Assembly (NCBI GenBank): GCA_023512835.1
Contig: CM042092.1
Location: 53,822,400-53,886,399, forward strand
DNA from: Taxillus chinensis
Lineage: Eukaryota > Streptophyta > Magnoliopsida > Santalales > Loranthaceae
DNA: 64,000 bases
Reading direction: 5' to 3'
A program made the translations under genes and the position numbers. This document shows positions 7,988-52,740 of this stretch, piece after piece. Numbering within the stretch: the first letter of the stretch is position 1; each line of letters begins with the position of its first letter. The notes under the pieces were generated by a model. It saw only the letters and a program-made list of their open reading frames with translations. It made no database searches and was not told the DNA's origin.

Positions 7988-8745
7988 CACTTATCTCTAT
8001 TTTTAAAGAATAAAATACATAATAAAGCTCCAACAGTTTTCATCGGTCATTACGCAGTAATTATAACTTTTCTCAATTACCACAATAATCTGCATGCAAC
8101 AATCTCGGTGAATTTAAACTAGTGTTCTAATGTTAATGTATATATGCACCTACATGTAAATTATGAATATCCCTATTACATGACTTATCTCCGGGTACAC
8201 TACTGAAATTCAAGAAAAACACAGTGATCATGTTCTCCAATATCTCCCGAGTCTAAAGAGTAGTTAGTCATTGACGCTAATATAAGCTAACTAGATCATG
8301 AACTCGCACCGATACTCCAATAACGCATCAATTTCTTCTAACTTCGAAAAAGATTGTAATTAGCCATGGTACCGGGAGAGTAAAAGAATTGATATAAAAT
8401 ACCTAATAAGAATTGTACTAATGTAGCACAAGTACTATCTTAATTTGCCTCAACTGTGCACAACCGGGTACATAGTTGTCTCTCAAAATCATGCCCACAT
8501 ATATAACATTCATACGCAAATGTCTCTCAGGATGGAAGGCCCATCCCAATTCACTCTAAAAAAATTTTGCTACCTATGCTAAAGGAATTTTACTATTTTG
8601 TCTCTCTCTCTGAACTCCCAGTATTCATTCACGAGAAAATTATTTTTTCTTATTTGATTTTAAACAAAAGCAAAGAGAATTTCAGTTGAGATTAGAAGAT
8701 TTCAAATTTTAAAAGTTTCCCCAAAAAACACAATCTTACCATGGC
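7988..8745 (-). other. Intergenic; decayed Tekay-type leader remnant
   Basis: No gene is visible. From about 8110 to 8320 the order of blocks (ctagtgttctaatg..., ggtacac, gtgatcatgttctcc, ctaactagatcatga, gatactcc) follows the leaders of elements 1 and 3 at low identity, suggesting an old remnant. The last five bases, ATGGC (8741-8745), are the left target duplication of the array that follows. Confidence 0.45.
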
Positions 8746-9031
8746 TGTAAGACCCGCAAAATTTTTAGCTATTTAAGTTCTTACTTAAAGAGTAATAATA
8801 ATAAAATAATAATAATGTTATTGTTAACAATAGTTAGAAAGGATATTTTAGATATTATCACGATAAAAATAAGCACCCAATATAGTCATTCAAATAGCAT
8901 GTGATAAGTAGCCGTTATGAATAATATCCGTCCGTTATGAATAGTATCCGTTTGGACTTCCATAAATAGGTATGAGCATGAGATTTTATTTATAAGAAAG
9001 TATAGAAGTAAGAAGAATAATAATAAGAGTT

Positions 9032-9317
9032 ATGGCATTAAGTTCTCAAGTACTGCCATCCGAGAATAGTGTACGCGATTAAGATCGGCGAGCAATACGA
9101 CTTGAAGTTACAAAGCTATGCTTTGCTATAGATGAGCTAAATGCTCGTGTCCAATGGCTGCAATATAATGCGACGAGACACAGGGAGAAGTTTGAGGTTA
9201 TTCAGTGCGACAACCACGACAATGTTAGGTCAAGGGTTGTGCGGCTCTCTATCAGAAGCACAACACGTCTTACGCACATACGCTAATATAATTCAAGAAA
9301 TTTTACGAAGGCCATAG
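9032..9317 (+). pseudogene. LTR-resident paralog of the body ORF2, LTR1 copy
   Basis: Read with small gaps, the frame runs ...RD(stop)DRRAIRLEVTKLCFAIDEL, then MLAEGLCSS and EILRRP-stop. This parallels the body ORF2 (RDEDRRRVRAEITRLLFTVDEL, MLAEGQCGS, EILNRP-stop). One in-frame TAA (GAA to TAA in the RDED block) is shared by all three LTRs, so it predates the array. Other breaks differ between copies and sit at CAG/CTG sites. It shows that a piece of the body became part of the LTR. Confidence 0.65.
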
Positions 9318-10157
9318 AATATGATATTAATGTTTATGTTTAGGATTATAATATTTTATGCTATAATGTTATCTTACTTTATTGTTTACTGATTATGCAA
9401 TTATATTATTTTATCCGCGTAAATATTAAATACGTTATAAAAAAAATAATAAAATAATTTCTTATATGTCATAAAAATTTTAGATGCTATATATTATGTC
9501 ATTTAGTTTCTTAAACCAAATTACTATGGGTAAGTAAGTATTACAAGCCTTAACTTTACCAAAAGTATAAAACATAGGTAAGGCCCAAAAATTTGAATGA
9601 GGCAGATTCTGGAGGTCCCATTCAAAAATTCATAACTTGAGTTATATAGATCCAATTGACATAAAACCAAATCCCATTTGTTCATTTATGACTTAGCTAA
9701 AACGTGTAAAAATTTCAGAATTTAATATGAAGCCAATCAATTCCAGAATTTAGAATACTACACATAGGTTTAGTATGAACGGGTAAACATTTTAGTATGA
9801 CTTTAAAATTCAATAACTTTTGTTATACATATTTAAAAATTATAAAATTGATACCCATTTTGTAGATATTTGAGTTAGTAATGCAATACAATTGGCCATT
9901 TGTCAAAAACTACAAAATTAAAAACGTTATAATTGAATTAGTAGGGAGTACACCAATGTGGACTTTTGATGCCAAAGGAACCTTCTAGGTTGAAAAGTCT
10001 TAAAACATTTTTTAAATGGTAGGAGAAGATACCCACGTTTTAATGGAGGATAATAGGAATAAAATAAAGTATTTTATATATTTTACATAATTTAATTTGA
10101 TGCCAAAGTCAAATTCATACACTACTTTCACACTACGCACCTACCACCATCCTTGCC

Positions 10158-10164
10158 TATATAA
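10158..10164 (+). promoter_or_regulatory. LTR1 TATA box
   Basis: TATATAA followed by GGAGTG in a pyrimidine-rich setting. It is the only strong TATA box upstream of the leader exons and would place transcription start near 10190. It is conserved in the other two LTRs (16379-16385 and 22611-22617). Confidence 0.6.
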
Positions 10165-10375
10165 GGAGTGTCTTGCCTCTCCTCTTAAGCACAAATCCCT
10201 CAAGCCACACCACGAAATTCCCTCTCAAAACACTCCCTTAAGCCCTCTTAACACCCCAAATACTCTACTCAAATCCTCTTTTGCTTTTGGTACTTACCAA
10301 GCGTCGAAGTTCTACGAAAGGTAATACTTAAGATTTTGAAATTTTGAAGTTACTTCTTATTTATTATGTAGATCT

Positions 10376-10511
10376 ATATGGTTGGTTTTACCACCTCATA
10401 TATACTATATTCATGGTTGGTTTTACCACCTTACATATGTTATTTATATGATTGGTTGTACCACCTCGTATATATACATACATGGTTGGCCTTGCCACCT
10501 CATATATATTT
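10376..10511 (+). repeat. Minisatellite, four units of TGGTTGG...CCACC, LTR1
   Basis: Four imperfect units of about 35 bp built on ATGGTTGGTTTTACCACCTC plus a TATA-rich spacer. Copies occur at about 16597-16732 and 22828-22963. It lies in the presumed leader intron. Confidence 0.75.
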
Positions 10512-10667
10512 ATATATACATGTGTAATGATTTTAAATTATAGTATTTTATCATAGCATATATTGTCATTCTATAATTCAAGTGAAAAGATGAGAATATT
10601 AACTAATGTTTTTATTTTTATTTTTAAGGTTCTAGATAGCGGAAGATCGTAAGGAACGACTTCCAAA

Positions 10668-10982
10668 ATGAATTCCCCCGACAATCGCCCTTCTTCTTCT
10701 GCAACCCCAATGGTTAATGCTTCAACCTCACAGCTATCCCCATCCTTATCTCCTCCTGATCGTCCCTTTAGACCCGTGTCTAATATCCCCTCATGGTTAA
10801 GGTGGAAGACACGTAGGAAAAATAAGCTTATCGAACGTCTTTTCCGTTCACCCAATACAAGAAGTAAATCTTATTCAAAAACTCTCAAGGCATATAACCT
10901 AGTTAGTGCACAACTCAAGGCTTATGATGCATGGGATCGAAATAGGATATGGAACAACAATAGAAGTGGGAACCCAAATTAA
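10668..10982 (+). CDS. LTR-encoded 104-residue basic protein of unknown function, LTR1 copy
   Basis: The ATG sits in AAAATGAAT context just after a likely splice acceptor. The N-terminal third is Ser/Pro-rich; the rest is basic and aromatic (WLRWKTRRKNK, LFRSPNTRSKS, AYDAWDRNRIW). All three LTRs encode an identical C-terminal block of about 75 residues, while the Ser-rich part shifts frame between copies at CTG/CAG sites. I do not recognise a family. Because it lies downstream of the TATA box, it could be translated from the element's leader exon. It may also be a chance frame. Confidence 0.45.
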   Translation: MNSPDNRPSSSATPMVNASTSQLSPSLSPPDRPFRPVSNIPSWLRWKTRRKNKLIERLFRSPNTRSKSYSKTLKAYNLVSAQLKAYDAWDRNRIWNNNRSGNPN

Positions 10983-12118
10983 TATTCAACCCCACAAGCA
11001 CGGTATGCCTATTAAAAGATATAAGTTAAAGTATGATATATATATATATATATAAAAGGAGATATGTATGATATTGAACTTTTCAAGCATTAATGCTAAT
11101 TTAGTGTTTTGATATTTTTAAGGTTTAGAACGCGGAGAACGACAAGCGATTGTAAGGGTTTTTCTCATCCCCTTTTTCTTTTTTATTATACTCTATATTT
11201 CATTATTATTGTAAGGGTTTTTCTTTTCCTTTTCTCTCTTTTCTCTTCCTCTTTAACTTGTTTTATTTGGAATTATTATTGTAAGAGTTTTATGTTTCTT
11301 ATTCTTCTATTTTCAATTTATTATTGAAAACATTAGTTTCTTTTTAATCTCTCTCTTGGTAATCTATGCTATTGATTGGGGTAGATAACCATTTTGATAT
11401 TCGTGGTTATCCTTGTTAACTTTGAATGTTTTATTGAAATTCTATGTGATGCCTCGTGTTATGTATGTTAAAGTTGTTATAACCTCTTATGTTTGGACAA
11501 AGTAAGTTTATGATGGGTGGTTCCGAAACACCTCCAATGCATTGGGTAAAGAACATCACCGGAGAGTGTCAATCCAAATTGATAATATGTTATGTTATGA
11601 TACGATATCTGGGTAGTTAACCTGGATCATGATGTTATGATACGATGTCTAAACATAATCTTCCATGTTATGATTTCCTTGTGAAATGTTGATCATGTAT
11701 GATGTGTAAATATTATATGGTATTTCCTATGTTCGATATCTTCATGATTTTCCTTACCCACTTATGTTTACCCTCATTGGGCTATTTGAGCTCACCCTTT
11801 TTATGATTTCTTTTCCAACCCCAGGTAATTAAGGGATGGAGAAACTAGGATAAGGAGTCGAGAAGTGCTTGGAAATAAAGTTGTGTGAAAATTTAAAGAT
11901 TTATTAAGTTGTTTGCTCGTGTGCTTTGTTATGTAATAATGGGTTATGGATACTTAGTCTCTAAACCCCTAAACCTTAAAGATCTTGGATTGAAATTTGT
12001 AATAATGAATGGTTTGTTTGATTAAATAAGTAATAGTTTGAAATTGATATAAAATTTGTATATTTATTTTCCGCTAACGCACCCGGTTTGGAGGTTTCAA
12101 ATTTGGGGGCGTTACAGT

Positions 12119-12130
12119 TGGTATCAGAGC
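12119..12130 (+). other. Primer binding site, tRNA-iMet, body 1
   Basis: TGGTATCAGAGC two bases after the end of LTR1, perfectly matching the usual plant initiator-Met primer site. It fixes the element's orientation as plus. Confidence 0.92.
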
Positions 12131-12461
12131 GATGGTTTAGTATAGATTAGAGACCGAGTCTTAGAAATATGAAGTACGATACATAAGTGGAGGGTCTTAG
12201 AATGATAATTTCGAAGAACGTATAGCATCTTGCAAGAAATTAAAAGCAATAAAACTTTTAAGTGAACGCATGCGATTATCGTTAGGAAATGTTATTTATT
12301 GATGGACTAACGTGTATTTTGTGAAGCAGACACAGTAAATTTAAGGCAGCACACTCTTGTGAAAGGTACGTCACTTGGCATGCTATAAAATAATAGTAGT
12401 GTATATCGCATACAAACACACAAATTATTTTATTTCATAAGGAAATATTACATAAAGAAAA

Positions 12462-12960
12462 TCACACTAACATTGCGATAATATAGAATAGATAGATTGT
12501 CATCAGGAACGGTATGAAAATTGGACTAAACACCTCGTCCATGAAAAATAAGAACGTTACAAAAATAACAAGAACGGTAAACGAATCTTGACGAGAGGAA
12601 ACATTTTTGTAGAGAAGGGAAGGAGTGGTTGTTTCGCCGGATTCGAAGCTTGTCGTAGGAGCTGCAAGTTCGCCGGAGAAATGATAAACAATCGGCAACC
12701 AGTTCGTTAGAGTGTTAGCAGGCGAGAAGATCAAGTCGTCAAGGTTGGGAAGCACCTCATGAGTAGGGTCTTCGATGCCAGCGAGAAGGATTAAGCCGGT
12801 GATGCTCGCTGAAGTCCGGCGAAGCTAGAGTAGCCCGAAATGGTGTGGGACGACGAGGCTTGAATTTGGAATCGGGGCAGGGCTATAATGGAGAACGTGT
12901 GGTGAGGAATAAAAGCATAAACGTATGGTTGAAAAGAAAGGAGGAAAAGCAAACCTATAA
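12462..12960 (-). pseudogene. Antisense GC-richer segment with open frames, body 1
   Basis: On the minus strand a frame reads through VLPNLDDLIFSPANTLTNWLP, VYHFSGEL and SLLYKN. In copy 2 its upstream part reads IQASSSHTISGYSSFAGLQR, a composition like a plastid-targeting N-terminus. The segment is markedly GC-richer (about 12600-12900) than the AT-rich element around it. It looks like a second captured host fragment lying antisense to the LOG-like ORF. I do not recognise the parent gene, and the two copies are out of frame with each other at CAG/CTG sites. Confidence 0.35.
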
Positions 12961-13004
12961 CTAATGTGTAGTGGGAGGTTTATACATATTTGCATATAGG
13001 CATG

Positions 13005-13170
13005 TTAAATTCGGTATATGTAATTAGGCTCGGACCAGCTTAGATAACAAGCAGGCCTCGTAAGTGGAAAATCATCAACTGCTACTCCAGTGGGAGCGCA
13101 TAGGAACCGAACCAAGACGTTCAGAATATTCACACAAGGTGACACCACTAGGCTACCTCCCAAGGTATCC
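13005..13170 (-). mobile_element. tRNA-derived SINE-like insertion, body 1
   Basis: On the minus strand there is a box A-like TAGCCTAGTGG (13145-13155) and, 31 bases further on, a box B-like GGTTCGGTTCC (13103-13113), the spacing of a Pol III internal promoter. The opening GGGAGGTAGCCTAGTGGT is like plant tRNA-related SINEs. The tail and target duplications are not clear. The same sequence is in body 2, so it was present before the array duplicated. Confidence 0.5.
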
Positions 13171-13507
13171 AAGTAAGTAACTCGATTTAATGTAAGGACC
13201 ATAATGCTCGATTTAATTTTTGTTATATATACTCCTTTCTTTAATGCCCAAGTAAATATCTATCATCTTGTTCCATGCTTTAAGTTAAGAATCCTAGCTT
13301 CAATATTGCGGCACGCTGAAGCTACATAGGTATAGATTAACTACACGTTAACGCCATATCATGCATGCTTTATACCACACACCAAAGGCACTCACCCATG
13401 CTCTTGCTATATGTAGAAGTTAATGCACCTATGCTTCTAAGACACGGTCAAGTTATCTTTTAGCTTGCTTTTTCTTACACGCTAAGTTTACCCACCCCAA
13501 CGAATAA

Positions 13508-13577
13508 CACTATAAATGGAAGTACGCGCCATTTCCATAGTTCTAGATCTAGACAACAATTTCTCTTTAGTTGAAAA
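13508..13577 (+). promoter_or_regulatory. TATA box and short leader ahead of the LOG-like ORF, body 1
   Basis: A TATAAATG box near 13511-13518 lies about 60 bp upstream of the ORF start, followed by an A-rich leader ending TTGAAAAATGG. This is the normal spacing for a plant promoter and suggests that the ORF could be expressed on its own. It is identical in body 2. Confidence 0.45.
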
Positions 13578-14186
13578 ATGGCTTCCTACTATAAACTACC
13601 ACGAAACTCAAGGTTCCAACGAGTTGGTGTTCTTGGAGGAAAAACCATTGGGAAGAAAGAGTGTTATAAGATCGCAACCATAGAACTCGGTGAGGAACTT
13701 GTCTCTAAAGGGTTAGACGTTGTCTGCAATTGCAAAATTATTGGACTTCTGGAGCTTTTGTCTCAAGTCGTTCGCTCAGCGGGAGGACATATATCTACAC
13801 ATTCAGAGCATGGAAACGTGATCTCTGAACTCCATCAACGAAAAGAAGAAGTCGCTAGACTCTCTGATTGCTTCATTATACTTCTTGGAGACCTTGGAGC
13901 TATGGAGGAATTCATGGAAATTGTCAGCTGGGCTCAACTAGGTATCCATGATAAACCCATAGGCTTACTTAATATAGGTGGATTTTTTGACCCCTTTATA
14001 GCCCAAATCGATACTACCATCAAAGAAGGTTTCATTAAACCATCACAAAAGAAGATCATCATCGTAAGCAGCAGCGCGAAGGATCTACTAAGGAAAATGG
14101 AGGCATATAAGCCAACACGTGAAGGTGCTATTTCAAAGGACCTTTGGGAAGCTGAAGCTGGATCATCGAATCTAGACAACATCTAG
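13578..14186 (+). CDS. LOG-like: LOG-like (cytokinin riboside 5'-monophosphate phosphoribohydrolase family) ORF, body 1
   Basis: This is a 202-residue intronless ORF. The match to plant LOG is clear in the C-terminal half: HQRKEEVAR (86-94; LOG has HxRKxxMAR), MEIVSWAQLGIHDKPIGLLN (113-132) and EGFIKPS. LOG enzymes release active cytokinin from its nucleotide. The defining PGGxGTxxE loop reads LGDLGAMEE (103-111), the GGG nucleotide loop reads CNCKIIGLL (50-58), and the N-terminal CGSS loop reads VLGGKTIG (18-25). The stretch between SQVV and HQRK is also shorter than usual. The catalytic Arg and Glu positions (R88 and E110/E111) remain. It is probably not a working hydrolase. Plant LOG genes normally have introns, so this looks like capture from mRNA. 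Confidence 0.85.
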   Translation: MASYYKLPRNSRFQRVGVLGGKTIGKKECYKIATIELGEELVSKGLDVVCNCKIIGLLELLSQVVRSAGGHISTHSEHGNVISELHQRKEEVARLSDCFIILLGDLGAMEEFMEIVSWAQLGIHDKPIGLLNIGGFFDPFIAQIDTTIKEGFIKPSQKKIIIVSSSAKDLLRKMEAYKPTREGAISKDLWEAEAGSSNLDNI

Positions 14187-14583
14187 AAAACCGCTTAGCT
14201 CTATCATAATTTGAAATCTGTATGGTGTATTTTATTTCACGTATTTTATTTTGTTTTAAATAAATGATGCTTCTAACCCTATGTCATCGTATAACCCTAG
14301 AATTTTTAAGAGTGATATCATAAACATAATAAATGGAAAGTAATAATATTGGTGATAATGTCTAGGACACGTTTTATAATGTGAAACCACAAATCTTAGT
14401 CAATATTTTATATCTATAGAAAGTGATTGATATGATTTTGATTGATGATAGAACAAGTCTATTTTGACATTTGAGAACCTATATCGATTATAATATCATT
14501 ATCATTAGCCGTACTCTAAGCAAGTGCTATGTATAAAATATAAACAGAAGGAGAAGATAATCTTTAGGAAGCAATGCAACGAT

Positions 14584-14872
14584 ATGGCATCATCCAACTC
14601 TCATGTGTATATACTCGAATCTAGCACCACGCGAGATGAAGATCGACGAAGGGTGCGGGCTGAGATTACAAGACTACTCTTTACCGTAGATGAACTAACA
14701 GTCCGTAATCATTGGCTACTATTAGAGCAAACAAGGATAAGGGAAAAGGCTAATCTCATCCGTGCAGCCACATCGGCAATGTTAGCAGAAGGACAATGTG
14801 GCTCGCTCTGAAGCTCACTTAACCCTTAGGGTTTATGCAGATACAATTCGAGAAATATTGAATAGGCCGTAG
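14584..14872 (+). CDS. Small coiled-coil-like ORF2, body 1 (frameshifted near the end)
   Basis: Begins MASSNSHVYI with an ATG at 14584. The frame is charged and leucine-rich (RDEDRRRVRAEITRLLFTVDEL, NHWLLLEQTRIREKANLI), likely a helical or coiled-coil protein. In this copy the frame ends early at 14811, because GGCTCGCTCTGAAG replaces the GGCTCTGCTGCAGAAG of copy 2, a CTG/CAG-site difference. The intact form ends ...EILNRP at 14872. It lies just upstream of the polypurine tract. The family is unknown. Confidence 0.6.
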
Positions 14873-14955
14873 AAAGTAATTATAATTTTCTCCTTGGGAC
14901 CATGAGCTTTTGTGATAACGAAGGTACGAAATAATTTCAAGGACGAAATTTCTTT

Positions 14956-14968
14956 AAGGAGGGTAGGA
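14956..14968 (+). other. Polypurine tract, body 1
   Basis: AAGGAGGGTAGGA immediately before LTR2, preceded by 'caaggacgaaatttcttt'. This block resembles the sequence before the 3' LTR of Tekay chromoviruses and links this element to that lineage. Confidence 0.85.
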
Positions 14969-15254
14969 TGTAAGACCCGCAAAATTTTTAGCTATTTAAG
15001 TTCTTACTTAAAGAGTAATAATAATAAAATAATAATAATGTTATTGTTAACAATAGTTAGAAAGGATATTTTAGATATTATAACGATAAAAATAAGCACC
15101 CAATATAGTCATTCAAATAGCATGTGATAAGTAGCCGTTATGAATAGTATCCGTCCGTTATGAATAGTATCCGTTTGGACTTCCATAAATAGGTATGAGC
15201 ATGAGATTTTATTTATAAGAAAGTATAGAAGTAAGAAGAATAATAATAAGAGTT

Positions 15255-15538
15255 ATGGCATTAAGTTCTCAAATCGCCATCCGAGAATAGTGTACGCGAT
15301 TAAGATCGGCGAGCAATACGACTTGAAGTTACAAAGCTATGCTTTGCTATAGATGAGCTAAATGCTCGTGTCCAATGGCTGCAATATAATGCGACGAGAC
15401 ACAGGGAGAAGTTTGAGGTTATTCGTGCGACAACCACGACAATGTTAGCTGAAGGGTTGTGCAGCTCTCTCATCGCAAGCACAACACGTCTTACGCACAT
15501 ACGCTAATATAATTCAAGAAATTTTACGAAGGCCATAG
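15255..15538 (+). pseudogene. LTR-resident paralog of ORF2, LTR2 copy
   Basis: Same decayed frame as at 9032-9317, with the same TAA in the RDED block and additional one- or two-base differences at CTG/CAG sites. Confidence 0.6.
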
Positions 15539-16378
15539 AATATGATATTAATGTTTATGTTTAGGATTATAATATTTTATGCTATAATGTTATCTTACTT
15601 TATTGTTTATCGATTATGCAATTATATTATTTTATCCGCGTAAATATTAAATACGTTATAAAAAAAATAATAAAATAATTTCTTATATGTCATAAAAATT
15701 TTAGATGCTATATATTATGTCATTTAGTTTCTTAAACCAAATTACTATGGGTAAGTAAGTATTACAAGCCTTAACTTTACCAAAAGTATAAAACATAGGT
15801 AAGGCCCAAAAATTTGAATGAGGCAGATTCTGGAGGTCCCATTCAAAAATTCATAACTTGAGTTATATAGATCCAATTGACATAAAACCAAATCCCATTT
15901 GTTCATTTATGACTTAGCTAAAACGTGTAAAAATTTCAGAATTTAATATGAAGCCAATCAATTCCAGAATTTAGAATACTACACATAGGTTTAGTATGAA
16001 CGGGTAAACATTTTAGTATGACTTTAAAATTCAATAACTTTTGTTATACATATTTAAAAATTATAAAATTGATACCCATTTTGTAGATATTTGAGTTAGT
16101 AATGCAATACAATTGGCCATTTGTCAAAAACTACAAAATTAAAAACGTTATAATTGAATTAGTAGGGAGTACACCAATGTGGACTTTTGATGCCAAAGGA
16201 ACCTTCTAGGTTGAAAAGTCTTAAAACATTTTTTAAATGGTAGGAGAAGATACCCACGTTTTAATAGAGGATAATAGGAATAAAATAAAGTATTTTATAT
16301 GTTTTACATAATTTAATTTGATGCCAAAGTCAAATTCATACACTACTTTCACACTACACACCTACCACCATCCTTGCC

Positions 16379-16385
16379 TATATAA
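16379..16385 (+). promoter_or_regulatory. LTR2 TATA box
   Basis: TATATAA, identical context to LTR1. Confidence 0.6.
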
Positions 16386-16888
16386 GGAGTGTCTTGCCTC
16401 TCCTCTTAAGCACAAATCCCTCAAGCCACACCACGAAATTCCCTCTCAAAACACTCCCTTAAGCCCTCTTAACACCCCAAATACTCTACTCAAATCCTCT
16501 TTTGCTTTTGGTACTTACCAAGCGTCGAAGTTCTACGAAAGGTAATACTTAAGATTTTGAAATTTTGAAATTACTTCTTATTTATTATGTAGATCTATAT
16601 GGTTGGTTTTACCACCTCATATATACTATATTCATGGTTGGTTTTACCACCTTACATATGTTATTTATATGATTGGTTGTACCACCTCGTATATATACAT
16701 ACATGGTTGGCCTTGCCACCTCATATATATTTATATATACATGTGTAATGATTTTAAATTATAGTATTTTATCATAGCATATATTGTCATTCTATAATTC
16801 AAGTGAAAAGATGAGAATATTAACTTATGTTTTTATTTTTATTTTTAAGGTTCTAGATAGCGGAAGATCGTAAGGAACGACTTCCAAA

Positions 16889-17203
16889 ATGAATTCCCCC
16901 GACAATCGCCCTTCTTCTTTGCAACCCCAATTGTTAATGTTTCAACCTCACAGCCTATCCCCATCCTTATCTCCTCCTGATCGTCCCTTTAGACCCGTGT
17001 CTAATATCCCCTCATGGTTAAGGTGGAAGACACGTAGGAAAAATAAGCTTATCGAACGTCTTTTCCGTTCACCCAATACAAGAAGTAAATCTTATTCAAA
17101 AACTCTCAAGGCATATAACCTAGTTAGTGCACAACTCAAGGCTTATGATGCATGGGATCGAAATAGGATATGGAACAACAATAGAAGTGGGAACCCAAAT
17201 TAA
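16889..17203 (+). CDS. LTR-encoded 104-residue protein, LTR2 copy
   Basis: Same ORF as at 10668-10982. The Ser-rich N-terminal part is read in a different frame between two compensating indels (loss near CTTCTTTGC, gain near CAGCC), giving LQPQLLMFQPHSL in place of the LTR1 sequence. The basic C-terminal region is identical. Confidence 0.4.
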   Translation: MNSPDNRPSSLQPQLLMFQPHSLSPSLSPPDRPFRPVSNIPSWLRWKTRRKNKLIERLFRSPNTRSKSYSKTLKAYNLVSAQLKAYDAWDRNRIWNNNRSGNPN

Positions 17204-18343
17204 TATTCAACCCCACAAGCACGGTATGCCTATTAAAAGATATAAGTTAAAGTATGATATATATATATATATATATAAAAGGAGATATGTATGATATTGA
17301 ACTTTTCAAGCATTAATGCTAATTTAGTGTTTTGATATTTTTAAGGTTTAGAACGCGGAGAACGACAAGCGATTGTAAGGGTTTTTCTCATCCCCTTTTT
17401 CTTTTTTATTATACTCTATATTTCATTATTATTGTAAGGGTTTTTCTTTTCCTTTTCTCTCTTTTCTCTTCCTCTTTAACTTGTTTTATTTGGAATTATT
17501 ATTGTAAGAGTTTTATGTTTCTTATTCTTCTATTTTCAATTTATTATTGAAAACATTAGTTTCTTTTTAATCTCTCTCTTGGTAATCTATGCTATTGATT
17601 GGGGTAGATAACCATTTTGATATTCGTGGTTATCCTTGTTAACTTTGAATGTTTTATTGAAATTCTATGTGATGCCTCGTGTTATGTATGTTAAAGTTGT
17701 TATAACCTCTTATGTTTGGACAAAGTAAGTTTATGATGGGTGGTTCCAGAAACACCTCCAATGCATTGGGTAAAGAACATCACCTGGAGAGTGTCAATCC
17801 ATTGATAATATGTTATGTTATGATACGATATCTGGGTAGTTAACCTGGATCATGATGTTATGATACGATGTCTAAACATAATCTTCCATGTTATGATTTC
17901 CTTGTGAAATGTTGATCATGTATGATGTGTAAATATTATATGGTATTTCCTATGTTCGATATCTTCATGATTTTCCTTACCCACTTATGTTTACCCTTCA
18001 CTGGGCTATTTGAGCTCACCCTTTTTATGATTTCTTTTCCAACCCCAGGTAATTAAGGGATGGAGAAACTAGGATAAGGAGTCGAGAAGTGCTTGGAAAT
18101 AAAGTTGTGTGAAAATTTAAAGATTTATTAAGTTGTTTGCTCGTGTGCTTTGTTATGTAATAATGGGTTATGGATACTTAGTCTCTAAACCCCTAAACCT
18201 TAAAGATCTTGGATTGAAATTTGTAATAATGAATGGTTTGTTTGATTAAATAAGTAATAGTTTGAAATTGATATAAAATTTGTATATTTATTTTCCACTA
18301 ACGCACCCGGTTTGGAGGTTTCAAATTTGGGGGCGTTACGGCT

Positions 18344-18354
18344 TGGTATCGAGC
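18344..18354 (+). other. Primer binding site, body 2 (one base short)
   Basis: Reads TGGTATCGAGC where body 1 has TGGTATCAGAGC. The lost base is the A of a CAG, the same context as the other copy differences, so the change may be a consensus error. Confidence 0.8.
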
Positions 18355-18684
18355 GATGGTTTAGTATAGATTAGAGACTGAGTCTTAGAAATATGAAGTA
18401 CGATACATAAGTGGAGGGTCTTAGAATGATAATTTCGAAGAACGTATAGCATCTTGCAAGAAATTAAAAGCAATAAAACTTTTAAGTGAACGCATGCGAT
18501 TATCGTTAGGAAATGTTATTTATTGATGGACTAACGTGTATTTTGTGAAGCGACACGATAAATTTAAGGCAGCACACTCTTGTGAAAGGTACGTCACTTG
18601 GCATGCTATAAAATAATAGTAGTGTATATCGCATACAAACACACAAATTATTTTATTTCATAAGGAAATATTACATAAAGAAAA

Positions 18685-19178
18685 TCACACTAACATTGCG
18701 ATAATATAGAATAGATAGATTGTCATCAGGAACGGTATGAAAATTGGACTAAACACCTCGTCCATGAAAAATAAGAACGTTACAAAAATAACAAGAACGG
18801 TAAATAGAATCTTGACGAGAGGAAACATTTTTGTAGAGAAGGGAAGGAGTGGTTGTTTCGCCGGATTCGAAGCTTGTCGTAGGAGCCGCAAGTTCGCCGG
18901 AGAAATGATAAACAATCGGCAACCAGTTCGTTAGAGTGTTAGCAAGGCGAGAAGATCAAGTCGTCAAGGTTGGGAAGCACCTCATGAGTAGGGTCTTCGA
19001 TGCCAGCGAGAAGGATTGAAGCCGGTGATGCTCGTTGAAGTCCGGCGAAGCTAGAGTAGCCCGAAATGGTGTGGGACGACGAGGCTTGAATTTGGAATCG
19101 GGGCAGGGCTATAATGGAGAACGTGTGGTGAGGAATAAAAGCATAAACGTATGGTTGAAAAGAAAGGAGGAAAAGCAA
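18685..19178 (-). pseudogene. Antisense GC-richer segment with open frames, body 2
   Basis: Copy of the segment at 12462-12960. Here the upstream frame (FIPHHTFSIIALPRFQIQ through VLPNLDDLIFSP) is open but stops where GTTAGCAAGGCG replaces GTTAGCAGGCG, another CAG-site indel. Confidence 0.35.
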
Positions 19179-19238
19179 ACCTATAACTAATGTGTAGTGG
19201 GAGGTTTATACATATTTGCATATAGGCATGTTAAATTC

Positions 19239-19405
19239 GGTATATGTAATTAGGCTCGGACCAGCTTAGATAACAAGCAGGCCTCGTAAGTGGAAAATCA
19301 TCAACTGCTACTCCAGTGGGAGCGCATAGGAACCGAACCAAGACGTTCAGAATATTCACACAAGGTGACACCACTAGGCTACCTCCCAAGCAGTATCCAA
19401 GTAAG
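19239..19405 (-). mobile_element. tRNA-derived SINE-like insertion, body 2
   Basis: Copy of the insertion at 13005-13170 with the same box A and box B. Confidence 0.5.
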
Positions 19406-19805
19406 TAACTCGATTTAATGTAAGGACCATAATGCTCGATTTAATTTTTGTTATATATACTCCTTTCTTTAATGCCCAAGTAAATATCTATCATCTTGTT
19501 CCATGCTTTAAGTTAAGAATCCTAGCTTCAATATTGCGGCACGCTGAAGCTACATAGGTATAGATTAACTACACGTTAACGCCATATCATGCATGCTTTA
19601 TACCACACACCAAAGGCACTCACCCATGCTCTTGCTATATGTAGAAGTTAATGCACCTATGCTTCTAAGACACGGTCAAGTTATCTTTTAGCTTGCTTTT
19701 TCTTACACGCTAAGTTTACCCACCCCAACGAATAACACTATAAATGGAAGTACGCGCCATTTCCATAGTTCTAGATCTAGACAACAATTTCTCTTTAGTT
19801 GAAAA

Positions 19806-20413
19806 ATGGCTTCCTACTATAAACTACCACGAAACTCAAGGTTCCAACGAGTTGGTGTTCTTGGAGGAAAAACCATTGGGAAGAAAGAGTGTTATAAGAT
19901 CGCAACCATAGAACTCGGTGAGGAACTTGTCTCTAAAGGGTTAGACGTTGTCTGCAATTGCAAAATTATTGGACTTCTGGAGCTTTTGTCTCAAGTCGTT
20001 CGCTCGGCGGGAGGACATATATCTACACATTCAGAGCATGGAAACGTGATCTCGAACTCCATCAACGAAAAGAAGAAGTCGCTAGACTCTCTCGATTGCT
20101 TCATTATACTTCTTGGAGACCTTGGAGCTATGGAGGAATTCATGGAAATTGTCACTGGGCTCAACTAGGTATCCATGATAAACCCATAGGCTTACTTAAT
20201 ATAGGTGGATTTTTTGACCCCTTTATAGCCCAAATCGATACTACCATCAAAGAAGGTTTCATTAAACCATCACAAAAGAAGATCATCATCGTAGCGAGCA
20301 GCCCAGAAGGATCTACTAAGGAAAATGGAGGCATATAAGCCAACACGTGAAGGTGCTATTTCAAAGGACCTTTGGGAAGTCAAGCTGGATCATCGAATCT
20401 AGACAACATCTAG
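19806..20413 (+). pseudogene. LOG-like: LOG-like ORF, body 2, frameshifted (possibly artefactually)
   Basis: Same start and first 82 codons as body 1. The frame breaks at GATCTCGAAC (body 1 GATCTCTGAAC), again at GTCACTGGG (GTCAGCTGGG), near GTAGCGAGCAGCCCAG (GTAAGCAGCAGCGCG), and at GGAAGTCAAGC (GGAAGCTGAAGC). Each break sits at a CTG or CAG. Away from these sites the two copies are almost identical. If the indels are sequencing error, this copy encodes the same protein as body 1. Confidence 0.8.
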
Positions 20414-20810
20414 AAAACCGCTTAGCTCTATCATAATTTGAAATCTGTATGGTGTATTTTATTTCACGTATTTTATTTTGTTTTAAATAAATGATGCTTC
20501 TAACCCTATGTCATCGTATAACCCTAGAATTTTTAAGAGTGATATCATAAACATAATAAATGGAAAGTAATAATATTGGTGATAATGTCTAGGACACGTT
20601 TTATAATGTGAAACCACAAATCTTAGTCAATATTTTATATCTATAGAAAGTGATTGATATGATTTTGATTGATGATAGAACAAGTCTATTTTGACATTTG
20701 AGAACCTATATCGATTATAATATCATTATCATTAGCCGTACTCTAAGCAAGTGCTATGTATAAAATATAAACAGAAGGAGAAGATAATCTTTAGGAAGCA
20801 ATGCAACGAT

Positions 20811-21101
20811 ATGGCATCATCCAACTCTCATGTGTATATACTCGAATCTAGCACCACGCGAGATGAAGATCGACGAAGGGTGCGGGCTGAGATTACAAGA
20901 CTACTCTTTACCGTAGATGAACTAACGATCCGTAATCATTGGCTACTATTAGAGCAAACAAGGATAAGGGAAAAGGCTAATCTCATCCGTGCAGCCACAT
21001 CGGCAATGTTAGCAGAAGGACAATGTGGCTCTGCTGCAGAAGCTCACTTAACCCTTAGGGTTTATGCAGATACAATTCGAGAAATATTGAATAGGCCGTA
21101 G
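20811..21101 (+). CDS. Small coiled-coil-like ORF2, body 2 (intact)
   Basis: 96 residues, MASSNSHVYI to EILNRP. This is the complete version of the ORF at 14584. The charged helical core and the MLAEGQCGSAAEAHLTLR block are intact. It ends 84 bp before the polypurine tract, the place where Tekay elements end their pol. I see no resemblance to gag or pol. Its paralog inside each LTR suggests that it is native to the family rather than a recent capture. Confidence 0.6.
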   Translation: MASSNSHVYILESSTTRDEDRRRVRAEITRLLFTVDELTIRNHWLLLEQTRIREKANLIRAATSAMLAEGQCGSAAEAHLTLRVYADTIREILNRP

Positions 21102-21184
21102 AAAGTAATTATAATTTTCTCCTTGGGACCATGAGCTTTTGTGATAACGAAGGTACGAAATAATTTCGAGGACGAAATTTCTTT

Positions 21185-21197
21185 AAGGAGGGTAGGA
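21185..21197 (+). other. Polypurine tract, body 2
   Basis: AAGGAGGGTAGGA immediately before LTR3, preceded by 'cgaggacgaaatttcttt'. Confidence 0.85.
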
Positions 21198-21483
21198 TGT
21201 AAGACCCGCAAAATTTTTAGCTATTTAAGTTCTTACTTAAAGAGTAATAATAATAAAATAATAATAATGTTATTGTTAACAATAGTTAGAAAGGATATTT
21301 TAGATATTATAACGATAAAAATAAGCACCCAATATAGTCATTCAAATAGCATGTGATAAGTAGCCGTTATGAATAGTATCCGTCCGTTATGAATAGTATC
21401 CGTTTGGACTTCCATAAATAGGTATGAGCATGAGATTTTATTTATAAGAAAGTATAGAAGTAAGAAGAATAATAATAAGAGTT

Positions 21484-21769
21484 ATGGCATTAAGTTCTCA
21501 AATCTTGCCATCCGAGAATAGTGTACGCGATTAAGATCGGCGAGCAATACGACTTGAAGTTACAAAGCTATGCTTTGCTATAGATGAGCTAAATGCTCGT
21601 GTCCAATGGCTGCAATATAATGCGACGAGACACGGGGAGAAGTTTGAGGTTATTCGTGCGACAACCACGACAATGTTAGGCGAAGGGTTGTGCAGCTCTC
21701 TATGCCGAAGCACAACACGTCTTACGCACATACGCTAATATAATTCAAGAAATTTTACGAAGGCCATAG
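21484..21769 (+). pseudogene. LTR-resident paralog of ORF2, LTR3 copy
   Basis: The best-preserved copy of this decayed frame. It reads MALSSQILPSENSVRD, then the shared TAA, then DRRAIRLEVTKLCFAIDELN. Confidence 0.6.
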
Positions 21770-22610
21770 AATATGATATTAATGTTTATGTTTAGGATTA
21801 TAATATTTTATGCTATAATGTTATCTTACTTTATTGTTTCTTGATTATGCAATTATATTATTTTATCCGCGTAAATATTAAATACGTTATAAAAAAAATA
21901 ATAAAATAATTTCTTATATGTCATAAAAATTTTAGATGCTATATATTATGTCATTTAGTTTCTTAAACCAAATTACTATGGGTAAGTAAGTATTACAAGC
22001 CTTAACTTTACCAAAAGTATAAAACATAGGTAAGGCCCAAAAATTTGAATGAGGCAGATTCCTGGAGGTCCCATTCAAAAATTCATAACTTGAGTTATAT
22101 AGATCCAATTGACATAAAACCAAATCCCATTTGTTCATTTATGACTTAGCTAAAACGTGTAAAAATTTCAGAATTTAATATGAAGCCAATCAATTCCAGA
22201 ATTTAGAATACTACACATAGGTTTAGTATGAACGGGTAAACATTTTAGTATGACTTTAAAATTCAATAACTTTTGTTATACATATTTAAAAATTATAAAA
22301 TTGATACCCATTTTGTAGATATTTGAGTTAGTAATGCAATACAATTGGCCATTTGCCAAAAACTACAAAATTAAAAACGTTATAATTGAATTAGTAGGGA
22401 GTACACCAATGTGGACTTTTGATGCCAAAGGAACCTTCTAGGTTGAAAAGTCTTAAAACATTTTTTAAATGGTAGGAGAAGATACCCACGTTTTAATAGA
22501 GGATAATAGGAATAAAATAAAGTATTTTATATGTTTTACATAATTTAATTTGATGCCAAAGTCAAATTCATACACTACTTTCACACTACACACCTACCAC
22601 CATCCTTGCC

Positions 22611-22617
22611 TATATAA
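22611..22617 (+). promoter_or_regulatory. LTR3 TATA box
   Basis: TATATAA, identical context to LTR1 and LTR2. Confidence 0.6.
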
Positions 22618-23120
22618 GGAGTGTCTTGCCTCTCCTCTTAAGCACAAATCCCTCAAGCCACACCACGAAATTCCCTCTCAAAACACTCCCTTAAGCCCTC
22701 TTAACACCCCAAATACTCTACTCAAATCCTCTTTTGCTTTTGGTACTTACCAAGCGTCGAAGTTCTACGAAAGGTAATACTTAAGATTTTGAAATTTTGA
22801 AATTACTTCTTATTTATTATGTAGATCTATATGGTTGGTTTTACCACCTCATATATACTATATTCATGGTTGGTTTTACCACCTTACATATGTTATTTAT
22901 ATGATTGGTTGTACCACCTCGTATATATACATACATGGTTGGCCTTGCCACCTCATATATATTTATATATACATGTGTAATGATTTTAAATTATAGTATT
23001 TTATCATAGCATATATTGTCATTCTATAATTCAAGTGAAAAGATGAGAATATTAACTTATGTTTTTATTTTTATTTTTAAGGTTCTAGATAGCGGAAGAT
23101 CGTAAGGAACGACTTCCAAA

Positions 23121-23437
23121 ATGAATTCCCCCGACAATCGCCCTTCTTCTTCTCGCAACCCCAATTGTTAATGTTTCAACCTCACAGCCTATCCCCATCC
23201 TTATCTCCTCCTGATCGTCCCTTTAGACCCGTGTCTAATATCCCCTCATGGTTAAGGTGGAAGACACGTAGGAAAAATAAGCTTATCGAACGTCTTTTCC
23301 GTTCACCCAATACAAGAAGTAAATCTTATTCAAAAACTCTCAAGGCATATAACCTAGTTAGTGCACAACTCAAGGCTTATGATGCATGGGATCGAAATAG
23401 GATATGGAACAACAATAGAAGTGGGAACCCAAATTAA
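23121..23437 (+). pseudogene. LTR-encoded 104-residue protein, LTR3 copy, frame broken
   Basis: Starts like LTR1 but gains a base at CTTCTCGCAAC and another at CAGCC, so the start codon is out of frame with the conserved basic C-terminal region. Confidence 0.4.
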
Positions 23438-23490
23438 TATTCAACCCCACAAGCACGGTATGCCTATTAAAAGATATAAGTTAAAGTATG

Positions 23491-23521
<31 letters not shown>

Positions 23522-24580
23522 GAGATATGTATGATATTGAACTTTTCAAGCATTAATGCTAATTTAGTGTTTTGATATTTTTAAGGTTTAGAACGCGGAG
23601 AACGACAAGCGATTGTAAGGGTTTTTCTCATCCCCTTTTTCTTTTTTATTATACTCTATATTTCATTATTATTGTAAGGGTTTTTCTTTTCCTTTTTTCT
23701 CTTTTCTCTTCCTCTTTAACTTGTTTTATTTGGAATTATTATTGTAAGAGTTTTATGTTTCTTATTCTTCTATTTTCAATTTATTATTGAAAACATTAGT
23801 TTCTTTTTAATCTCTCTCTTGGTAATCTATGCTATTGATTGGGGTAGATAACCATTTTGATATTCGTGGTTATCCTTGTTAACTTTGAATGTTTTATTGA
23901 AATTCTATGTGATGCCTCGTGTTATGTATGTTAAAGTTGTTATAACCTCTTATGTTTGGACAAAGTAAGTTTATGATGGGTGGTTCCGGAAACACCTCCA
24001 ATGCATTGGGTAAAGAACATCACTGGAGAGTGTCAATCCAAATTGATAATATGTTATGTTATGATACGATATCTGGGTAGTTAACCTGGATCATGATGTT
24101 ATGATACGATGTCTAAACATAATCTTCCATGTTATGATTTCCTTGTGAAATGTTGATCATGTATGATGTGTAAATATTATATGGTATTTCCTATGTTCGA
24201 TATCTTCATGATTTTCCTTACCCACTTATGTTTACCCTTACTGGGCTATTTGAGCTCACCCTTTTTATGATTTCTTTTCCAACCCCAGGTAATTAAGGGA
24301 TGGAGAAACTAGGATAAGGAGTCGAGAAGTGCTTGGAAATAAAGTTGTGTGAAAATTTAAAGATTTATTAAGTTGTTTGCTCGTGTGCTTTGTTATGTAA
24401 TAATGGGTTATGGATACTTAGTCTCTAAACCCCTAAACCTTAAAGATCTTGGATTGAAATTTGTAATAATGAATGGTTTATTTGATTAAATAAGTAATAG
24501 TTTGAAATTGATATAAAATTTGTATATTTATTTTCCGCTAACGCACTCGGTTTGGAGGTTTCAAATTTGGGGGCGTTACA

Positions 24581-27489
24581 ATGGCCAAACCCAAAAACCA
24601 CTCTTTTACTCTATAATGAGAATTCATTTTAATATGGATGATTAATAATAAAAAAAATATAGAATTGGTTAGACTATGAAATAAAAAACTTACAAGACTC
24701 AATTCACACGAATATATTTTTGAAGCTACACACAGCCCCCAAAACACGTTGTGTCAAAGTGATATCCAGGACCATCTATATGGCACCCATTGTTTCCCGT
24801 CACAGCTTATGTAAGATTGTACCGCTTCTAGATTTCTTTGATGCTTATAATGCTATCTAAAAAGGAAGTCAAGAATTCAATTTCCATCTCCAACAACTCA
24901 TTGATTATTCCAGGAGTGCCATGTAAAAATCTAAATGCCTGCCTATCAGCCAACGTGTGCACGAGTGTAGTAAACCAAGCCCTCATCCTAAATAATTGAG
25001 AAAAAGTTTAAGGAATTTGAACATGCATATCGATTTAAGACATATTTAATCCAAACTATTAGTGTTAAAGTACTACCACATCAGCTGCGCATTAAAGCCT
25101 CACCCAATCCAATCGACCCCTTTACAACCTTGTGCCTTCGTCAAATCGAGACACCAGCCTCCACCACCTTCCACGCCATCCTCATCTGTCCCAATCAAGG
25201 AACCACCCTACACCACACAATTCTGAACCTCATCCCTCTCTCTCTCAATGGTCAACCCTGAATGAGGTGATGGATGCAAGAAAAAAAAAGGATTAATCTT
25301 GGTTGCAACATGAGAAAATAATAAAATAATATTTAATTAGTCATATTTATTAGCTAATTTCGACAAGTGTTTTGGCTAAAAGCAATATCTACTGTAGCAA
25401 TATATAGGGCATTATATGCTGCTTTCCATTTTTGTTTTTGCTTAAATATTAGCTTTAGCAAGCACACGATTGCTCTTATAAAAAACAAAAACATAAGTTA
25501 TACACAGGCTACCAAACACTAAAAATGGCTTATAAATAGAAGTATAAAATATAGCACTTCAGTCCGATACATTTCATGACAGGCTTAAACGGGCCAAATT
25601 TATTTAAACCTGTACACTAAAAAGGCTTGGCTGCAAGAAGCTCAACTTTTTTTTCCTTTTAATATATTTCCTAAAATTATTATTTAAATTTACATTAAAA
25701 TATTTCAATAAAATATCCAATCCATTACTATTACATATTTCAAATTTATATTCATACCCATTATTCTTTAAAATGAGCCAAATTTTAAAATTATTAGTCG
25801 ACAAGTTCGGTAATGCAGTTACAACTCACATTTTTATAAAAATTCATAGTATGAATTTCAATATTAGCCTATGAATCTCTAATTTTTAAAACAACCGATT
25901 TTTGTTACAAAAAGGCACTTTACTGTAGCGACGATTCGAAATTTTAAAAAAACTATAAAATATTTTAGTTAATACAATTTATGTCTTAATTGATAAAATT
26001 TATATCAGATAATACGTTTTTAAAAAAAATGAATGACTATTAATGCAAAAGGAAAAAAACACCTAGCCCACAGGCTGGTCTGCATCCACTCAGCTCAACT
26101 TGCATGAACCACAGTTCACCAAACCAACTCATTTAGACTCAAACTTAAAACGGCCTAATTTGGAGTGTTCTGGTCCGCAAAAGTCTGTGAACTGGCGCAC
26201 TGAGCTTACACTTAAAACGGCTCGCTTTACACCATGGCCCAATAGAAGGAAAGACTAAAGCCAGCAACGTCCAAGTCTAAACCCAGAGTAATTCGCATAT
26301 AATTTTCTAAATTGTAAACATTTTTATGGAAAAATAAAAACAACAAAACCCAATTGAGCTCTTAAAAGCAAAATTTCCCTTTTTGATAAAGTCATACATT
26401 TTAAGACCAATTGACCTAAGATTGATAATTTAAAGGTTTAATTAGCTACAATTTAAATAAGCCAAAGTAGAATAAAAATAAATAAAGAGAAATGCTACGG
26501 AACGATTGGACAGAATTTTACTCTTAAATTTGACAAGTTGAAGAGGATGATAAAGTAATTTTAAAACACTTCAATGGATGCTAAGCACTGCTCTTAAAGT
26601 AGCTTCCAGGAGCTGCAACTTACGAGTATTAACAATAATTGCTCAATCATTATTCATAATTTTACATATTTAAAATATTTTTTACTCCTGTATAAATATA
26701 CACCACAATAAATTTCCTAAAACACACTCTATATCATTAAAATAATAATTTATATTATTTTTTATTTAATAATAATATTTTTATAATTTAATATGAAATA
26801 AAAATAAATATTATAAAAAATATAAAGGAGAGAGATATGAGAATTTTTATATATAATTTAATAATTATAAAGAGTGACTAGTATTTTTCAGTGAAATATT
26901 ATACAAATTCTATGAAAAAAAGTTAAATATAAGACATTTATTGTAACAATAATTTTATAACTTTTTTTCTTAAATATAGAAAAACATACTCTATTATATG
27001 GGAAATCTATTACTAGTAGTTTAACAGATTTCCCTCTACTAACCCGGCTGCCTTGGCCGAGGCAAAAAAAAAATAAAAAGGAATGATTGTCGGCTTACAA
27101 ACACCTAAAATAGCTTCAACAGTAATTTGTTAAAAAAAAACTGAACGTAAACACATTGAGAAGTACCTTTTTAACCAAAATTGTTCCCAAGTTACACTAG
27201 TCAAATATAGAATCATGAGATATCCATCCATTTTACATTTTACAGGCGAGGCTACGCCTACATATGAAACTATCAGTAAAAGGAAATAACAAAGCAATTA
27301 AACACGGTAAAGAATTGTGTTTCACATTATATTAACCCCAACAGAGAAAACTCATGAAACGAACCAAGCAAGACTTGGGTAATAGGGAGTTCTTTTTTAT
27401 TAAATTATTTCCCCGAGCTTTTGCTTCCCTGTCTTGTCAAAAATGGGGCAGTTTGCGGCCATAAAACAGGAATAAGTTTACCTAATGAT
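24581..27489. other. Intergenic AT-rich DNA, no gene seen
   Basis: Begins with the ATGGC target duplication. No supported gene, RNA or intact repeat was found. The part next to TIM22 (about 27220-27489) should hold its 3' untranslated region, although no polyadenylation site can be fixed. Confidence 0.5.
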
Positions 27490-42771: not shown

Positions 42772-43605
42772 TTAAGATTGTTCGTCCTCGAACAATTTTG
42801 GGTGCTGCTCACGCATCACGGACTCACGTTCCCATGTCTCCTCCTCAATGCCACGGTGCTGCCACAACACGCGAACCAAAGGAATAGCACGACCACACAA
42901 AAGCTTCTCTCGCCGATCTAGGATACGGATAGGGGCCTCAACAACGGACATGTCATCCTCAATGTCCAATGTCCCCCAATCGATCACATGAGTGGGGTCA
43001 GGGTGATACTTCCGCAACTGGGACACGTGGAATACATTGTGCACTCGACTCAGCCGCGGTGGTAACGCTAACCGGTAGGCCACAGGCCCCACACGATCCA
43101 GAATCTCAAAAGGACCAATAAACCGCGAAGATAGCTTGGAACCTCGCCCAAACCGTCGATGTCCATGACGTGGAGAAACACGAAGAAACACATGATCACC
43201 AACAGAAAACTCCAAAGGTCGCCGCCGCTGATCCGCATAAGATTTCTGCCGATTTTGAGCTGATAACAACCGCTGACGAATCAACTTAACCTTCTCGGTA
43301 GCCTCTTGAACCAACTGTGGTCCCAAGAGAGCTGTCTCCCCCACCTCGGTCCAACACAAAGGTGATCGACACGGCCGCCCATACAACGCCTCAAAAGGAG
43401 CCATCCCAATGGATGCCTGATAACTGTTGTTGTAGGCAAACTCCACCAAAGGAAGGTGAGTCGCCCACGAACCCCCAAAATCTAACACACAGGCCCGTAA
43501 CATGTCCTCCAAAGTCTGATTCGTCCTCTCTGTCTAGCCGTCAGTCTCAGGGTGAAAGGCTGTACTCAAGTGAAGTTTAGTCCCTATAGCCTCCTGCAAA
43601 CCTGC
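42772..43605 (-). pseudogene. Integrase C-terminal part and chromodomain of element 3
   Basis: Minus-strand frame 43512-42772 continues the integrase core (EDMLRACVLDFGGSWATHLP, ASIGMAPFEALYGRPCRSP), then the GPF/Y module (FIGPFEILDRVGPVAYRLALP, RVHNVFHVSQLRKY). It ends in a chromodomain (ILDRREKLL, IPLVRVLWQHRGIEEETWERE), which targets integration to heterochromatin in this lineage. Between 43605 and 43513 two in-frame stops replace codons that are Trp and Gln in relatives (SRF-stop-AGL and DG-stop-TERTN). Both are single transitions. Confidence 0.9.
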
Positions 43606-52566: not shown

Positions 52567-52740
52567 CAACGGTTGACTAGCTTTAGAAAATCAACATTGA
52601 ATGAAATTGTCTGAATTCTGATCTTGGAGCTTATTTTTCTTTAGTTTTTATTTATTTTTGAATTTTTCGGAGCTGCTGGGTGTGTTCTTGTTTTCTTACA
52701 GGAACATTCACAGCATATTTGTGAGAATTCCTAGTTGTGT

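Follow-up and report, generated by a model that had tools for sequence, protein, structure and literature searches.

How does a gene related to the cytokinin-activating LONELY GUY (LOG) enzymes come to be the main protein of a retrotransposon that has no gag-pol? The question was raised by a stretch of 64,000 nucleotides of the Taxillus chinensis genome (assembly GCA_023512835.1, contig CM042092.1, positions 53,822,400 to 53,886,399 of the forward strand; hereafter the window, with positions counted from its first letter). Positions 8746–24580 of the window hold a long terminal repeat (LTR) element with a LOG-like open reading frame (ORF). We are fairly confident that this element belongs to a family of non-autonomous LTR retrotransposons, in which an intronless LOG-like gene and a small, predicted helical ORF stand in the place of gag-pol.

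The element is a tandem copy comprising two element lengths with a common middle LTR (LTR-internal-LTR-internal-LTR), with a period of ~6.22 kb, LTRs of 3.37 kb and internal parts of 2.85 kb. The LTRs are direct repeats on the forward strand that begin with TG and end with CA (TGTAAG...TTACA): LTR 1 (TGTAAGACC...GTTACA) occupies 8746–12116, the shared LTR 2 starts at 14969 and ends at approximately 18340, and LTR 3 occupies 21198–24580. The whole array is regarded as one insertion unit because a perfect 5-bp target-site duplication, ATGGC, is present on both outer flanks (8741–8745 and 24581–24585). A primer binding site (PBS) of the tRNA-Met type, TGGTATCAGAGC, follows the 5′ LTR at 12119–12130, and the polypurine tract (PPT) AAGGAGGGTAGGA precedes the 3′ LTR at 14956–14968. 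Comparison of the three LTRs with each other gave 19–27 substitutions per 3.37 kb, and between the two internal parts (12117–14968 and 18341–21197) there were 23 in 2.84 kb; these values are upper limits, as many of the differences lie at CAG/CTG. The first internal part contains an intact LOG-like ORF of 202 amino acids (aa) at 13578–14186 (+) and a first copy of a second ORF, ORF2, at 14584–14872 (+), whose frame is broken close to its 3′ end. The second part contains a second LOG-like copy at 19806–20413 (+) and an intact ORF2 of 96 aa at 20811–21101 (+).

Gag, pol and env are all missing from the window element. Its stop-to-stop frames of at least 130 aa were limited to LOG and part of the second LOG copy, and no frame for gag, protease, reverse transcriptase (RT), RNase H or integrase-chromodomain, such as an autonomous Tekay chromovirus would have, was found in the element. 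When 12 gag/pol frames of the two other Gypsy elements in the window were compared with the element at E 0.01, nothing matched beyond a marginal stretch of 39 residues (31%, E 0.008), which was present in both internal copies; the same 12 frames strongly matched a third element of the window. A first-pass annotation of this DNA had described an element with primer site and polypurine tract but without gag-pol, and this description was accurate.

The 202-aa ORF matched Pfam PF03641 (E 1.1e-26) and NCBIfam TIGR00730 (109.1 bits, above the cut-off of 96.35). Its closest solved relatives by sequence were Arabidopsis At2g37210 (2a33, E 2.3e-46) and 1ydh (E 1.7e-38). The AlphaFold model, based on 63 sequences, had a mean predicted local distance difference test score (pLDDT) of 82, and Foldseek related it to 2a33 (E 2.4e-17, TM score 0.85 by target length). 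By profile match and predicted fold, the protein is thus a member of the LOG family in fold and descent, and the LOG assignment, which the first-pass annotation would have given up had there been no significant match, was upheld by the profiles and the solved structure alike. Its identity to canonical LOGs is about 45–50%, and to the LOGs of named plant species it was mostly 39–49%.

The LOG frame was then searched in the whole genome (520.9 Mb, with nine large contigs, C1–C9, of 47.6–60.0 Mb each). Among 346 candidates, 150 were scored, and 150 of 153 matches were listed, so that all counts are lower bounds. The listed rows merged into at least 137 loci, all of which lay on the nine large contigs, with every contig represented. 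Of the 30 best loci, 24 had all components in colinear order, from the upstream region through LOG, the spacer, ORF2 and the PPT region to the start of the LTR. ORF2 was absent at L008 and L024, the LTR was not found at L012 and L026, and ORF2 was reduced to 37 bp at L029. At L002 (G000:C2:51597477-51601079), the leader and the upstream region are missing and LOG follows the PBS immediately, with its frame open from the second codon.

A 32-nt pattern spanning the junction of PPT and LTR had 149 matches in the genome at up to three mismatches, and its reversed control had none. Upstream LOG was sought at 100 of these 149 junctions (those with 0 or 1 mismatch), and a LOG row was found within 3 kb at 88 of them. 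Four of the 12 junctions without a LOG row were read over 801 bp each: three contained ORF2 and the last 130–204 bp of LOG, reaching the edge of the stretch, and the remaining one (L108) matched the element over 33 bp only. TBLASTN with four frames taken from elements of the window detected no pol in these four short stretches. The alternative of a local host LOG pseudogene that was hit by LTR insertions found no support and is refuted by the genome-wide loci, their colinear order, the LOG at the junctions and the duplication around the array; we give it practically no weight, and the expectation that most copies keep LOG held for the junctions examined.

Twenty elements, chosen among the copies nearest to that of the window, were tried for dating with partial LTR pairs of 128–730 aligned bases. 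Fifteen were datable, with divergences (K) of 0.0014–0.032, corresponding to 0.05–1.2 million years (My) at an assumed substitution rate of 1.3e-8, and 13 of them were not older than 1.0 My; in the other five the 5′ LTR start was absent from the fetched stretch. The family is thus high in copy number and recently spread, and it carries its cargo in colinear order.

The second constant component is ORF2, which was found within 1.6 kb downstream of LOG and on the same strand in 104 of the 137 loci, among the matches listed. A separate search gave 1238 candidates, of which 150 rows were scored; by the cut applied, 120 were ORF2 and 30 an LTR-borne paralogue, and LOG was upstream of 104 of the 120 ORF2 rows. 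ORF2 was open in 18 of 30 loci under a strict motif rule. It had no match in Pfam, and its predicted model consisted of two helices (pLDDT 91, predicted TM score 0.56), in a family predicted to be all-helical. Among 27 loci, shared variants were 15 synonymous (S) to 19 non-synonymous (N) and singletons 17 S to 57 N (p 0.04). The paralogue, ORF2′, lies in the LTR at 9032–9316 (+), where it is interrupted by a stop, with further copies starting at 15255 and 21484. It is 54–59% identical to ORF2, has 94 aa in other copies and was open in 15 of 30 loci by the motif rule. One protein family is therefore present twice at the 3′ end of the element. The LTR also contains a 104-aa ORF at 10668–10982 (+) with no match in Pfam. 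LOG had at first been taken as the sole recognisable protein; its identity stands, but ORF2 and the related ORF2′ of the LTR are also conserved among copies.

Two putative promoters could be placed. In the LTR, a TATATAAG box at 10158–10165 (+) is, judging by its sequence, the likely promoter of the genomic RNA. A TATAAAT box with a presumed promoter function lies 5′ of the LOG start at 13511–13517 (+), within an upstream region (13178–13577) whose conservation was examined in 24 loci, six of 30 having been dropped beforehand. From 13178 to the start codon, identity to the window was 92–97%, versus 70–87% in the leader from 12478. This difference fits a LOG-like gene with its own putative promoter. 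Read by eye, GT..AG stretches flank the 104-aa ORF on both sides, and the LTR leader at 10319–11120 is possibly spliced.

The origin of the LOG-like gene was approached through the host. Five host LOG loci (L101–L105) have split coding regions, each with a mini-exon (V/I)IPKTLM; in L101 there are six pieces plus the mini-exon. Compared with the proteins of named plants in the collection, the host LOG exons reached an identity of no more than 86.6%. The LOG of the element runs uninterrupted across the split positions of all five, as expected of a captured processed gene, and because the five host genes are split by introns, capture in intronless form fits. The first-pass annotation had proposed the capture of a LOG mRNA, and the contrast between the intronless element gene and the split host genes agrees with it, but the capture appears old and no parent could be named among the five host LOGs. 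In a tree, the retrotransposon LOGs grouped with the collected proteins P0002, P0003, P0141 and P0124, apart from both the canonical plant LOGs and those of the five host loci (support 98/93). Without P0141 and P0124, a similar split was obtained with P0010 inside the retrotransposon group (100/99). The sequences place the capture before the family's present copies, and the gene may have passed through other elements.

Here an alternative with a chance only a little short of even has to be considered: the LOG could derive from a mobile lineage of long standing that circulates among plant Gypsy elements, and it could have reached this family from another retrotransposon, through recombination or template switching, and not straight from a host mRNA. 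The four proteins that group with the retrotransposon LOGs are all on short contigs, which is consistent with such a lineage. So is the available text of a survey in which Gypsy consensuses from two Citrus species and Populus, found via their RT, contain a YgdH (LOG-type) domain (PMC9289625). Against it, P0010 switches sides between the two trees, the branches are long enough for long-branch attraction, rooting was by midpoint only, and the presence of ORF2 beside 104 of the 137 LOG loci points to one family in this genome. The sole ORF2 homologue in the protein collection was P0121 (79%). It and P0002, whose best full-length match in the present genome was 88%, each come from a contig of length 1927 and from one source; LOG and ORF2 thus probably occur together in an element of another genome.

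An unsplit LOG frame of 314 aa with canonical motifs was also seen at L107 (G000:C122:110900-112200), on a 276-kb contig. Its appearance, judged by eye, is more that of a fungal or microbial gene than of a plant gene, and the contig is possibly a contaminant.

The comparison with the host genes also bears on the idea that the elements supply small RNAs that silence host LOG genes. The elements are abundant and, judging by their CAG/CTG errors, probably CHG-methylated, so that small interfering RNAs would be conceivable. The longest exact match between 50 copies and the five host LOG stretches was, however, 15 nt (11–15 per gene); the antisense controls reached 11–15 nt and 20 shuffles of one copy 12–15 nt, and the 15-nt match at L104 exceeded its own controls (12 and 12). 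The best BLASTN pieces measured 53 bp (77% identity) and 29 bp (90%). Further host LOG genes may exist, but this role, raised at first reading, is now very unlikely.

Does the protein still act as a LOG enzyme? Seven divergent members were compared with 56 canonical rows, in which 111 alignment columns were at least 95% conserved. Thirty-two of these columns were kept by all seven wherever the residue was present (one of the 32 rests on a single row), and 79 were changed in at least one. The PGGxGTxxE, YGGG and CGSS loops, which we take to be the nucleotide-binding and catalytic signatures of LOG, are not those of an active phosphoribohydrolase: in the window copy CGSS became GGKT, YGGG became CNCK and PGGxGT became LGDxGA, the last reading PGDxGA in P0001 and P0002. 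By contrast, W118, Q120, L121, G122, I123, H124, K126, P127, G129, N132 and G135 were kept by the divergent members. R88, E110 and E111 are retained in the window copy, and R88 is changed to Q in P0003, P0124 and P0141. These motifs suggest that the protein has the fold of a LOG but not its catalysis, and it is regarded as a probable pseudoenzyme. A skipped host mini-exon (IIPKTLM) was considered as the cause of the gap between GGH and HQRK and was rejected, as P0010, P0141 and P0124 have intermediate lengths.

Whether such a protein is maintained was examined in 50 LOG copies, in which the neutral N/S ratio at the observed transition bias was 2.59. The share of amino-acid variants was 161 of 208 among singletons, 74 of 98 among variants present in 2–4 copies and 26 of 50 among those present in at least five copies. 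The last class (24 S to 26 N) differed from the singletons (47 S to 161 N; Fisher p 6.6e-4) and from the neutral ratio (p 0.002). Four of five control frames did not show this shift, and the fifth, which has third codon positions in common with LOG, did. In 35 gap-free copies, pairwise dN/dS (the ratio of non-synonymous to synonymous divergence) was 0.89 at dS below 0.05 (148 pairs), 0.57 at 0.05–0.1 (291 pairs), 0.50 at 0.1–0.2 (149 pairs) and 0.47 above that (7 pairs). In P0124 and P0141, differences from P0002 were rarer at canonically conserved sites (p 0.03 and 0.003). Taken together, these patterns suggest probable purifying selection in the copying lineages and near-neutral decay after insertion.

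Several results weigh on the other side. The dN/dS pairs are not independent. After exclusion of CAG/CTG and CpG neighbourhoods, the contrast between common and singleton variants weakened to 9 S:13 N vs. 32:127 (p 0.053), and to p 0.16 in the 35 gap-free copies only. Canonically conserved sites showed no deficit of amino-acid differences between the window copy and P0001 or P0002 (p 0.33 and 0.51). Among the listed loci there were 51 single-piece LOG matches of at least 600 bp, and only 25 were free of stops, the other 26 containing them. The stops, the weakened contrast and the lack of a signal at conserved sites speak for a LOG frame that is a functionless passenger and is merely copied, and the singleton N/S of 3.43, above the neutral value, points the same way. 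The apparent constraint would then be due to common ancestry of the copies, to selection acting on the RNA or to noise. Such a passenger would hardly explain why shared variants are poor in amino-acid changes, why dN/dS nearly halves with depth and why four of the five other frames show no shift. Intact LOG-like frames in P0002 (88%) and P0003 (166 codons, 66–69%) also speak against it, although the protein collection holds open frames only. On balance, we consider the passenger explanation rather improbable.

For a maintained protein, the following mechanism is proposed. The gag-pol of a chromovirus ancestor would have been replaced by the LOG-like gene, and the element would move by means of enzymes supplied in trans by a chromovirus. 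The LOG-like protein, if produced, would be a dead LOG subunit that has kept the fold and the conserved WAQLGIHDKPxGLLN core and could bind cytokinin nucleotides or host LOG subunits. Such binding might alter cytokinin activation in dividing tissue, where transposition must occur to be inherited. A catalytically dead LOG subunit that alters cytokinin activation is the most likely function suggested by these sequences, and taken alone it is a tentative proposal. A wider version, to which we give only a modest chance, is that a long-lived mobile LOG lineage kept a dead LOG under selection as a selfish-element effector, tuning cytokinin signalling or nucleotide pools in the host meristem. To our knowledge, no hormone-pathway effector of an LTR retrotransposon has been known before. 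The signs of constraint at the protein level, in spite of the lost catalytic signature, raise a testable question, namely whether plant retrotransposons have effectors that act on host hormone pathways.

The lineage of the ancestor was sought in the ends of the element. The last codons before the PPT read NNFKDEIS in the first internal copy (14927–14968, a stretch that includes the PPT) and NNFEDEIS in the second (21156–21197), and the FEDEIS frame was present in 23 of 30 loci. A chromovirus ORF of the window (42772–43533), which matches integrase SH3 and, below the cut-off, a chromodomain, ends in LFEDEQS. We take the FEDEIS stretch as a probable stump of the ancestor's pol, and descent from a Tekay-type chromovirus appears most likely. 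Two negative results tell against this descent and the proposed supply in trans: BLASTN found nothing similar to the element in the remainder of the window, including the chromovirus there, and no autonomous partner with the same ends was found, the 100 junctions having been checked only for upstream LOG and four of the 12 exceptions read over 801 bp. The Tekay-like ends proposed at first are represented by the PBS type and by the resemblance of FEDEIS to the chromovirus pol end.

LOG-type genes in other retroelements allow a comparison. Steinbauerova and colleagues are said to have described, in 2011, two elements of the Athila type that carry an additional, LOGL4-like ORF. The LOG-bearing Gypsy elements of Citrus and Populus contain the same LOG-family domain inside a plant Ty3/gypsy element. 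Those elements keep pol, with RT as the marker, whereas the present family lacks gag-pol and has LOG as its main protein; if their assignment to Athila is right, they are Athila-like elements, whereas the ends here are of the chromovirus type. In the open-licence literature, no non-autonomous LOG-bearing family was found. The early impression of an undescribed family is thus correct for the non-autonomous form and must be qualified for LOG-type domains in plant Gypsy elements, which are in print. What is new here, as far as the sequences indicate, is a family that is non-autonomous, has been active recently and carries a LOG-like protein, probably a pseudoenzyme, as its main cargo.

Other known elements share single features with it. 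Large retrotransposon derivatives (LARDs) are, in the available text of PMC7215508, non-autonomous elements without protein-coding capacity; like them, the present element has long LTRs and lacks gag, pol and env, but its conserved LOG-like ORF and ORF2 set it apart from that definition. The same text describes tandem LTR-internal-LTR-internal-LTR arrays of Cassandra (PMC7215508), a terminal-repeat retrotransposon in miniature (TRIM) that encodes no protein and whose LTRs contain 5S sequence; the arrangement is the same, and the present element differs in bearing conserved ORFs. Bs1 of maize contains segments of three genes, none of them a full ORF in the part of the source available (PMC13317346). 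Bs1 and other gene-capturing retroelements hold host gene sequence as this element does, but the present family keeps one nearly full-length gene and its own upstream region in more than 100 loci. Orchid Gypsy elements with an N6-methyladenosine (m6A) demethylase domain, identified by RT and called functional in the title of the paper (PMC9289625), are likewise a Gypsy family in which an enzyme domain was acquired and became fixed; the family described here, in contrast, lacks pol and has lost the signature of the enzyme. Most descriptions of host gene capture by LTR elements concern fragments, and in this family a hormone gene occupies the place of gag-pol in more than 100 loci. Genome annotation may miscount LOG genes.

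Part of the apparent decay appears to be technical. In the 50 LOG copies, 34 of 48 one-base insertions or deletions (indels) lay at CAG/CTG, against a background of 11% (p 2e-22). When the two internal copies of the window were compared, eight of their 13 short indels were at such sites too. Base-calling error at CHG-methylated cytosines is a source of such indels, and those seen here look like methylation-linked miscalls. The second LOG copy of the window, which the first-pass annotation had listed as a plain repeat, is indeed present but frameshifted by several one-base shifts at CAG/CTG; if these are miscalls, as is probable, the true sequence of this copy may be intact. In other assemblies of this kind, too, sequencing artefacts may underlie frameshifts at CAG/CTG.

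Two other Gypsy elements of the window were noted. The chromovirus at 42772–48240 (−) has matches to RT, RNase H and integrase SH3 and a weak match to the chromodomain, and it has two PBS-like sites (47947 and 48240) 293 bp apart. A Gypsy element at 52735–60576 (+) contains RT-like and integrase frames followed by further ORFs, one of which (59105–59920) had a sub-threshold match to Transposase_32.

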